Assembly (NCBI GenBank): GCA_009787835.1
Contig: WQSN01000004.1
Location: forward strand, 48,420-112,419
Direction: 5' to 3'
DNA from: Treponema sp.
Lineage (GTDB): Bacteria > Spirochaetota > Spirochaetia > Treponematales > Breznakiellaceae
DNA: 64,000 bases
Of the stretch, positions 29,548 to 63,528 are shown piece after piece. The stretch's first letter is position 1; each line of letters begins with the position of its first letter. The notes beneath the pieces are model-generated. The model worked only from the letters and a program-made list of their open reading frames with translations. It was not told the DNA's origin and ran no database searches. The translations under genes were made by a program, and so were the position numbers.

Positions 29548-30726
29548 TTACATGACCGGATTATCAGAACTTCTTTTACCGATACTTTCAATTTTCCCTG
29601 TTTCAATTTTATCCGATTCTCTTCTGCCTTTTGCAGCCATTGTAGCGATTGCCGCAGAAGCTGTAAGCGCCGCGTTCGCAGCGGGTGAAAGCTCTGTTCC
29701 TTCTTCGGCTTCACTGCCTGACACATCCATCAGCGACGATGTCGCGGCAAGATCATTATTCAAATTAGCCGTCCTTATAACAGGAGGAGGCGTATTGTTT
29801 TTAATCCTTGATTTTATGGGAGATACTTCCAGAATCTTGTTTTCCAGCTCCGCCAGCTGGCTCGCAATACGCGCGTCAATCTCGCCAAAATCAGTTTCTA
29901 TAATGCAGCCGCCTGAGTCAACTGTTGTATCTTCTATTATCTGAACGGATTTCGCGCTTTCCATAAGTTTTATAAAATCCTGTTTGCGTTCCGTCGCAAG
30001 CTGCAAATCGCTCATGTTTACCCTGATGATAACATCTCCCTTTGCCTTTACCTTCCTGAGAGCCTGAACAACATTGGATATAATAACATTACGCTGATTT
30101 TCAGAAATAACCTTTATAATCTTGCGCGCGATCAGTAAAACCAAATCTATTATTTCTTTTTCCGTTTCGGCGAGTATTTCACCGCGTTTATCCTGCGCGC
30201 GCTCAAGCATTACCTGGGTTCTTTCAATCAAACGATCAACTTCGGCCTTGCCTTCCGCGAAACCCGCTTTGTGTCCCTCTTCATGCCCGTTATCAAGCGC
30301 TTCCTTGCGTTCGGCATCCAGAGTCTGTTTCATCTCTTTTTCCATTTCCGCCGCTTTCGCGTTCGCTTCATCTATTATTTTTTTTGCTTCAGTTTCCGCC
30401 TGCTGTTTTATAATCTGGGCTTCGTCGTTCTTTCGTTTAACGTCTGCGGATGCCGTTTTCTGCGCGTCAAGAACAATTTTGTCCGCTTCCGCTTTCGCGC
30501 CGGAGAGCATTTTCGCTTTTTCCGCTTCCCATCTTATCCTGAACGCTTCAGCTTCCCGGCGAAGGTCGTCAGCCGTCGGCCCTGTGTATTCTTCCGCCTT
30601 GACCGTGTCTTCATCAGTTTCTTCAACCGTCATAAGATGCGCAAGCTCAAGAGTATTGGGAGAAGCTATTATAATTTTTTCAGCTAACGGCACCAGTTCA
30701 TTCGGTCTGAATACAGCTTTTAACAT
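29548..30726 (-). CDS. fliH: Flagellar assembly protein FliH
   Basis: Coiled-coil Ala/Glu-rich region, FliH/V-ATPase E-like C-terminal half, position between fliG and fliI. Confidence 0.88.
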   Translation of the reverse strand: MLKAVFRPNELVPLAEKIIIASPNTLELAHLMTVEETDEDTVKAEEYTGPTADDLRREAEAFRIRWEAEKAKMLSGAKAEADKIVLDAQKTASADVKRKNDEAQIIKQQAETEAKKIIDEANAKAAEMEKEMKQTLDAERKEALDNGHEEGHKAGFAEGKAEVDRLIERTQVMLERAQDKRGEILAETEKEIIDLVLLIARKIIKVISENQRNVIISNVVQALRKVKAKGDVIIRVNMSDLQLATERKQDFIKLMESAKSVQIIEDTTVDSGGCIIETDFGEIDARIASQLAELENKILEVSPIKSRIKNNTPPPVIRTANLNNDLAATSSLMDVSGSEAEEGTELSPAANAALTASAAIATMAAKGRRESDKIETGKIESIGKRSSDNPVM

Positions 30727-30747: not shown

Positions 30748-30862
30748 GGGAGTGGGGAGTTGGGAGTCGGGATTGTTGTTTCTGAAATATGTGCCAGCAT
30801 CTTGCAAGGCTTACAAACAACAATCCCTATTCCCTACTCCCTATAACCCACTCCCCATTCCC
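30748..30862. repeat. Inverted-repeat element built of GGGAGTN-type heptamers between fliG and fliH
   Basis: gggagtg gggagtt gggagtc gggattgttgttt (30748-30781) against the reverse complement of 30815-30862 (gggaatg gggagtg ggttata gggagta gggaata gggattgttgttt); the inner 13 bp are perfect. Confidence 0.8.
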
Positions 30863-30863
30863 G

Positions 30864-31916
30864 TTATACTACCAATTCGTCCTCTCCTGCGCGGGCGACG
30901 ACGATCTCTCCTGTGTCTTCCAGATGCCTAATGATGGATACAATCTTCTGCTGGGCTTCTTCAACATCTTTCAGACGTACAGGACCCATATACTCCATGT
31001 CTTCCTTGAGCATACCAGCGGCGCGTTTTGACATGTTCTTGAATATCTTGTCCTGTACCTGCGAGTCAACGGATTTAAGCGCTTTCGCGAGTTCCTGAGA
31101 GTCCACTTCGCGCATAACCTTCTGAATGGCGCGGTCGTCGAGCATAACAATGTCTTCGAATACGAACATTCTTTTCTTTATCTCTTCGGCAAGTTCGGGA
31201 TCTTCGTCTTCCAGAGCTTCTATAATCTGCTTTTCAGATGCGCGGTCTACAAGGTTCAGTATTTCTACAATGCTTTCCACGCCGCCTGCCGCGGTATAAT
31301 CTTCGCTTGACAGCGATGAAAGTTTCTTTTCAAGAACACGTTCAACTTCACGTAACACTTCAGGGCTTGTTCTGTCCATTGTCGCTATGCGCCTCGCTAC
31401 ATCGCTCTGCACTTCATTCGGCAGATTTTGAAGAATTATGGAAGCCTTGTTGGGCTCAAGATACGCAAGGATAAGCGCGATAGTCTGCGGATGCTCCTGC
31501 TGAATAAAGTTTAAAAGATGCGCAGGGTCTGTGCGCCTGATAAAGTCAAACGGACGAACCTGAAGGCTGGATGTAAGACGGTTGATAATATCAATTGCCT
31601 TCTGGCTTCCCAAAGATTTTTCCAGAAGTTCCCTGGCGTAGTCGATGCCGCCAGTTGATATAAACTGGTTGGCCATCATCAGTTCCTGGAATTCCTGAAG
31701 GATTGCGTCTTTCTGTTCTGCGTCAATTGTTTCAAGGCGCGCTATTTCAAATGTTAATGTCTCAATTTCATCTTCACGAAGATATTTGAATATTTCCGCC
31801 GAAATTTCCGCGCCTACGGCTACGAGAAATATCGCTGATTTCTGGCGCCCGGTATATTCTTTCCCGCCTTTCTTTTTTCCACCGCCTCCGGCGGCGCCTG
31901 CTGCTGCTTTTGCCAT
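30864..31916 (-). CDS. fliG: Flagellar motor switch protein FliG
   Basis: YTGRQKSAIFLVAVG, EHPQTIALILAYL, VMLDDRAIQKVMREV. Confidence 0.96.
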   Translation of the reverse strand: MAKAAAGAAGGGGKKKGGKEYTGRQKSAIFLVAVGAEISAEIFKYLREDEIETLTFEIARLETIDAEQKDAILQEFQELMMANQFISTGGIDYARELLEKSLGSQKAIDIINRLTSSLQVRPFDFIRRTDPAHLLNFIQQEHPQTIALILAYLEPNKASIILQNLPNEVQSDVARRIATMDRTSPEVLREVERVLEKKLSSLSSEDYTAAGGVESIVEILNLVDRASEKQIIEALEDEDPELAEEIKKRMFVFEDIVMLDDRAIQKVMREVDSQELAKALKSVDSQVQDKIFKNMSKRAAGMLKEDMEYMGPVRLKDVEEAQQKIVSIIRHLEDTGEIVVARAGEDELVV

Positions 31917-63036: not shown

Positions 63037-63528
63037 TCATAATTTCCTGATATATCTTACATGCACTTCAGGTGATCCCCAATTATGCCTTGGCCAATGA
63101 ACTTCGCCGTATACTTCAACAGTATCGGCCGCGGCGATACTCACACCCTGATACCACAGGTTCTGCCTTTCTTTCGCTCCGATTTTGACAAGAATATCGC
63201 CTGATGAATCACGGAAAATATACAGGTCTTTTCCTCCGTAAAACTGGACAATATTTCCCTGTATAACAATCGGCATTTTATGGCCGTATGTCCATGCCTG
63301 GACTACAGAGACAGCTTGCTGCCCATAACCGTATTGCCCCGGAATAATCTGCTGTCCCGGGACAATTTGCTGTCCGGGAATGATCTGCTGACCCGGAATA
63401 ATCTGTTGACCCGGTAGAATCTGCTGTCCCGGAACTGCCTGCCCTGAAAATCCTCCCTGGGCAAAAACGCTTCCTGTTGAAAAAAACACAATTAAACAAC
63501 AGGTAAAAAAAGCTGTATACTTGTTCAT
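63037..63528 (-). CDS. Secreted BOF (YgiW/YdeI-family) protein with PGQQI(I/V/L) tandem repeats
   Basis: Signal peptide; five PGQQIx repeats; IVIQGNIVQFYGGKDLYIFRDSSGDILVKIGAKE...VEVYGEV. Confidence 0.82.
   Translation of the reverse strand: MNKYTAFFTCCLIVFFSTGSVFAQGGFSGQAVPGQQILPGQQIIPGQQIIPGQQIVPGQQIIPGQYGYGQQAVSVVQAWTYGHKMPIVIQGNIVQFYGGKDLYIFRDSSGDILVKIGAKERQNLWYQGVSIAAADTVEVYGEVHWPRHNWGSPEVHVRYIRKL
63343..63432. repeat. Five 18-bp coding tandem repeats (PGQQI[ILV])
   Basis: Repeated ccgggaataatctgctgt-type 18-mers within the BOF gene. Confidence 0.85.

Follow-up and report, generated by a model that had tools for sequence, protein, structure and literature searches.

A palindromic element with heptamer-array arms between fliG and fliH of a Treponema genome, probably related to S23-encoding elements

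Described palindromic elements and heptamer repeats

Rickettsia palindromic elements (RPE) measure ~100–150 bp and occur in many copies, some intergenic and many in frame within unrelated, even essential, genes (PMC10969869). The element described here from Treponema is likewise palindromic, 115 bp long and present in about a dozen copies, and it too has copies that are open in the host frame, in valS, a badF-like CoA-enzyme activase gene, a DEAD-box helicase gene, trmD, and flhB. It differs from RPE in its heptamer-array arms, its species-specific repeat units, the likeness of its arms to those of an S23-encoding element, and its spirochaete host; the resemblance to RPE is one of anatomy and behavior.

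The heptamer repeats of Xanthomonas (GGGANTN/GGGAATC) and Nostoc (GGGGAYT) form close inverted pairs, favor co-directional gaps, and are dispersed genome-wide. In the passages of that study considered here, they are described as quadruplex-forming simple repeats and are linked neither to a core nor to S23 or insertion (PMC4692102). The Treponema genome similarly has GGGANTN tandem units, inverted pairs, and co-directional gaps, and the resemblance to cyanobacterial repeats proposed in a preliminary description of this DNA holds for unit type and arrangement. Unlike the repeats as characterized there, the Treponema copies have a shared core, empty sites in relatives, and S23 partners.

In Coxiella, the intervening sequence (IVS) of the 23S rRNA gene carries tandem heptamers before S23, and RNase III cuts the IVS (PMC4990558). 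The probable S23-encoding relatives of our element resemble such sequences in having an inverted-repeat stem, an S23 gene, adjoining tandem heptamers, and insertion into tolerant loops, but they are located within protein-coding genes and leave the host frame open through S23. The fliG–fliH copy differs further: it does not lie in a 23S rRNA helix and holds no S23 gene within its 115 bp, whereas larger related elements have one; a stem is predicted for it as well. Correia/NEMIS and ERIC MITEs are also small, dispersed, and hairpin-forming, lie in transcribed gaps, and are possible RNase III substrates. They differ from the Treponema element in that its arms are tandem arrays, and neither a cognate transposase nor a consistent target-site duplication was found for it.

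The hairpin between fliG and fliH

In the window (the whole stretch of 64,000 nucleotides analyzed), fliG (30864–31916, an ORF of 350 aa) and fliH (29548–30726) both lie on the minus strand and are separated by 137 bp. Most of this gap is taken up by one 115-bp hairpin (30748–30862, boundaries approximate to within a few bases). The upstream gene, fliG, whose protein product is 80–96% identical to FliG relatives in spirochaetes, ends with its stop codon directly before the element; downstream, fliH has a ribosome-binding-like AAGAAGG outside it. On the plus strand, the outer arm (30748–30768) consists of three GGGAGTN heptamers (GGGAGTG GGGAGTT GGGAGTC) and is followed by the inner core arm GGGATTGTTGTTT (30769–30781), which core alignment places within a conserved 60-nt core. 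The central part of the core (30782–30814) is a weakly paired loop region according to folding and core alignment. Beyond it, in minus orientation, come the other inner core arm AAACAACAATCCC (30815–30827), the exact reverse complement of the first, and an outer arm of five degenerate inverse-orientation heptamers (30828–30862; TATTCCC TACTCCC TATAACC CACTCCC CATTCCC on the plus strand). The preliminary description had seen a gap filled almost entirely by one hairpin, with three GGGAGTN copies facing five degenerate inverse ones around a perfect 13-bp core, and this anatomy is confirmed.

Both the repeats and the predicted fold are exceptional in the window. Heptamer triplets gave three overlapping matches, all at this hairpin, against 0.01 expected. 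The folding energy of the plus strand is −58.3 kcal/mol compared with −32.9 ± 3.3 kcal/mol for shuffled sequences (z = −7.6), the mRNA strand is also predicted to fold strongly (z = −6.4), and 30748–30862 ranks highest in stability among 2,556 tested 115-nt stretches. Taken singly, the 13-bp core is unremarkable; its paired placement within arrays is what stands out. The variable base of the heptamers is mismatched between the arms when copies are compared by eye, so we claim no covariation. No Rfam family reached its gathering score in the window, and a reading of the element as a terminator or promoter was set aside because simple consensus scans gave no site. Elsewhere in the window, an 18-bp unit is repeated in tandem 5.4 times (63338–63434) inside the ORF at 63037–63528.

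By its FliG, the genome belongs among Treponema-like spirochaetes of termite guts. A heptamer array at the fliG locus was found in none of 80 relatives. Their fliG–fliH gap has a median of ~14 bp (measured in 39 loci), and subtraction of the element leaves ~22 bp in the Treponema gap. Judged by sequence comparison, the fliG–fliH hairpin is an insertion. The preliminary description had favored this over a junction element conserved throughout the genus or a sequence with no other genomic copies; the junctions of relatives lack the element, the genome search returned about a dozen copies, and the insertion reading is thereby upheld. In some relatives (L061, L063, L064, and L100), the same gap after fliG is occupied by palindromic or repeat insertions unrelated to this element, so the site is a permissive one.

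Genomic copies and probable S23-encoding relatives

About a dozen loci in the genome carry arrays of the GGGAGTN type. Six copies are intergenic: between fliG and fliH, gap and pgk, nusG and rplK, dnaK and dnaJ, and two fumarase parts, and downstream of a lolA-like gene. All six lie in co-directional gaps of ≤60 bp (pre-insertion length), a class that makes up ~12% of the noncoding bases of the window; the chance of this is ~4e-6 if that proportion applies genome-wide. Part of the preference may reflect selection against insertions elsewhere. These copies are not frameshifted intragenic ones, since their neighbors are intact, different genes (one without a Pfam match). The intragenic copies, some of them in essential genes, were recognized by their open frame, which biases their count; a single-arm array also lies inside an ATP-grasp gene. 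Neither these in-frame copies nor the S23-encoding elements, all outside the window, figure in the preliminary description. The valS and badF loops that carry copies are mostly short in relatives. Unit number varies among copies. A 60-nt core starting with GGGATTGTTGTTYGYAATCT is common to this genome (G000) and to the sister species G008 and G037. In G008, the arms are built of a different heptamer, GGGACTN; the core is thus conserved, whereas unit sequences differ from genome to genome. A further core match at window position 2542 falls inside a long ORF, has neither palindrome nor arrays around it, and was dismissed as chance. In three genomes (L192, L199, and L204), we also observed arrays in a PrmC-like methyltransferase gene, at roughly the same linker ahead of the NPPY motif. 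A second valS in this assembly (L300, G000:C127), whose contamination is 8.4%, looks identical over the stretch shown to that of another genome (L301, G016:C42).

No mobilizing enzyme of the families tested was found. No reverse transcriptase (RVT_1, PF00078) was matched in G000 or G008, which sets the element apart from diversity-generating retroelements, and no Y1 transposase (RAYT, PF01797) was matched in G000 at the threshold used; both were rejected as movers in this genome. The core search tied no copy evidently to a transposase, with flanking genes annotated unsystematically. No consistent target-site duplication was seen by eye at the sites examined, where the loops are highly variable.

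S23, the "23S rRNA intervening-sequence protein" (searched as PF05635), is encoded in larger elements with the same type of arm. The genus has five IVP-type S23 genes, and inverted heptamer or heptamer-like arrays flank every one of them (those of G016 and G007 are somewhat degenerate). In leuS, three of the genes share a single site in the variable loop of the editing domain; a fourth occupies the badF linker that in this genome contains the short element. At that linker, relatives from three genera in all have the S23-encoding element, a single array is present in another two genomes, and the remaining sequences compared mostly have a short linker. In leuS of G008 (L171), an S23 element, a short element with the core, and another heptamer array are all in frame in one gene. 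An apparent second S23 copy (C44) proved to be the other half of leuS, the contig break falling in the array between the halves. Because the 60-nt core is absent from the S23 elements, the short element is not a simple internal deletion of them.

Seven of the nine IVP-type S23 genes in the family lie inside a continuing host ORF, always in frame +2 (one is cut by a contig end), compared with none of 22 more distant S23 genes. The host frame runs through the nested S23 genes with zero stops, against 1.5–4.1 expected from synonymous codon shuffles (P = 0.003–0.14 each). Of the two alternative frames, +2 is poorer in stops, which may account for its constant use. An eighth nested case was noted on a viral contig (L344:1-2477), where an Eco57I-type methylase ORF encloses an S23 gene in frame +2; phage records gave no S23 match. 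Around more distant (Avd-like) S23 genes, we observed inverse-orientation short tandem repeats of ~7 bp (L242, L243, and L244).

The association extends to other bacteria. We compared 49 S23 loci, drawn from cyanobacterial and other plasmids and viral contigs together with the nine IVP-type genes of the family, and mostly outside spirochaetes. A strong inverted repeat surrounds S23 in 38 of them, compared with 2 of 138 control positions, and the commonest arm period is 7 (56 of 98 arms vs. 8 of 276 in the control). Unit sequences differ widely among these arms; unit length mostly does not. On cyanobacterial and Riemerella plasmids, S23 genes were seen within cas (cas6–cas4, cmr2–cmr3) and suf operons (L321, L322, L326, and L330).

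Origin of the element and its wider connections

We consider it probable (roughly 0.6) that the short element is a dispersed, palindromic, non-autonomous, selfish mobile element, probably related to S23 and IVS elements, located at a permissive operon site. This reading starts from a multi-copy family, absence from the junction in relatives, in-frame intragenic copies, a conserved core with species-specific arms, and a predicted transcript hairpin; it would add to these non-autonomous mobility, a relation to S23 elements, cutting by RNase III, and little effect on fliH. The element would insert into transcribed core operons and would survive where harm is small, either in co-directional gene gaps or in frame within variable protein loops, where it would be translated. 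It may be the S23-less companion of the larger same-arm element encoding the S23/IVP four-helix-bundle protein, as suggested by arms of one type, by co-occurrence, and by the single site at which both have been seen. The larger element would belong to the same class as 23S rRNA intervening sequences, and S23 may aid spread or upkeep at the level of the hairpin, in DNA or RNA. RNase III probably cuts the hairpin in the fliG–fliH transcript, and since fliH keeps its own ribosome-binding site outside the element, the effect on fliH is likely to be small.

It is rather unlikely, though worth weighing, that two unrelated things have met at one site, the short palindrome being a MITE-like family moved by some DNA transposase and S23 genes inserting into, or being captured by, the arrays. 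The absence of the 60-nt core from S23 elements fits such a coincidence, as do single-arm arrays in the same linkers and array-bearing genomes in which no S23 gene was detected (G001, G002, and G004, the last 67% complete). Against it, both element sizes have one arm type within a genome, and such arms accompany most S23 genes, those of distant phyla included. Each of the core-rich genomes (G000, G008, and G037) also has an IVP-type S23 gene, and array-rich genomes coincide with IVP-type S23 in the genus, where the genomes are related and not independent samples. A regulatory hairpin that benefits the host by setting mRNA processing or fliG:fliH stoichiometry, effects suggested in the preliminary description, could be expected to be very stable and to lie in an operon gap, as this one does, and Correia and ERIC hairpins do alter processing (PMC10969869). 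The hairpin is nevertheless missing in all relatives examined, and because the same element occurs in unrelated operons and inside protein-coding sequence, a role of this kind is an improbable reason for its presence.

Short palindromes dispersed in operon gaps also bring to mind REP/REPIN-type elements moved by a RAYT (Y1) transposase, and Y1 transposases are present in 18 of 40 genomes of the genus; G000 is nonetheless without a match. To our knowledge, REPINs have neither heptamer arrays nor copies lying in frame within genes, and we give this origin very little credence. Immobile simple-sequence repeats that expanded by slippage would differ in unit number and would include single-arm arrays, both of which are seen, yet they leave the conserved 60-nt core, the paired inverted arms, and the empty sites in relatives without a cause, and we find them scarcely plausible.

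Bacterial heptamer repeats have been described for decades, and we know of no agreement on their origin. Building on the S23-related mobile element that we prefer, we tentatively suggest, at somewhat less than even odds, that inverted heptamer arrays across bacteria (the cyanobacterial STRR, the Xanthomonas GGGAATC pairs, and the hairpins described here) may be the ends of one S23-associated selfish class, with the 23S rRNA intervening sequences among its members. Inside protein-coding genes, this class would persist by dual coding, with S23 in one frame and the host in +2, and the fliG–fliH hairpin would be a non-autonomous member. The papers searched, with most subscription journals outside their scope, contain no link between heptamer repeats and S23 beyond the Coxiella IVS and no case of an S23 gene lying within a protein gene. 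For S23/IVS proteins, no function is known (PMC4990558). The shared arms and insertion site connect heptamer repeats with S23 and lead to the idea that S23 may act on heptamer-ended hairpins. The nested S23 genes are remarkable in their own right: in several genomes, the frame of an essential tRNA synthetase gene continues across a second gene that is encoded in a different frame.
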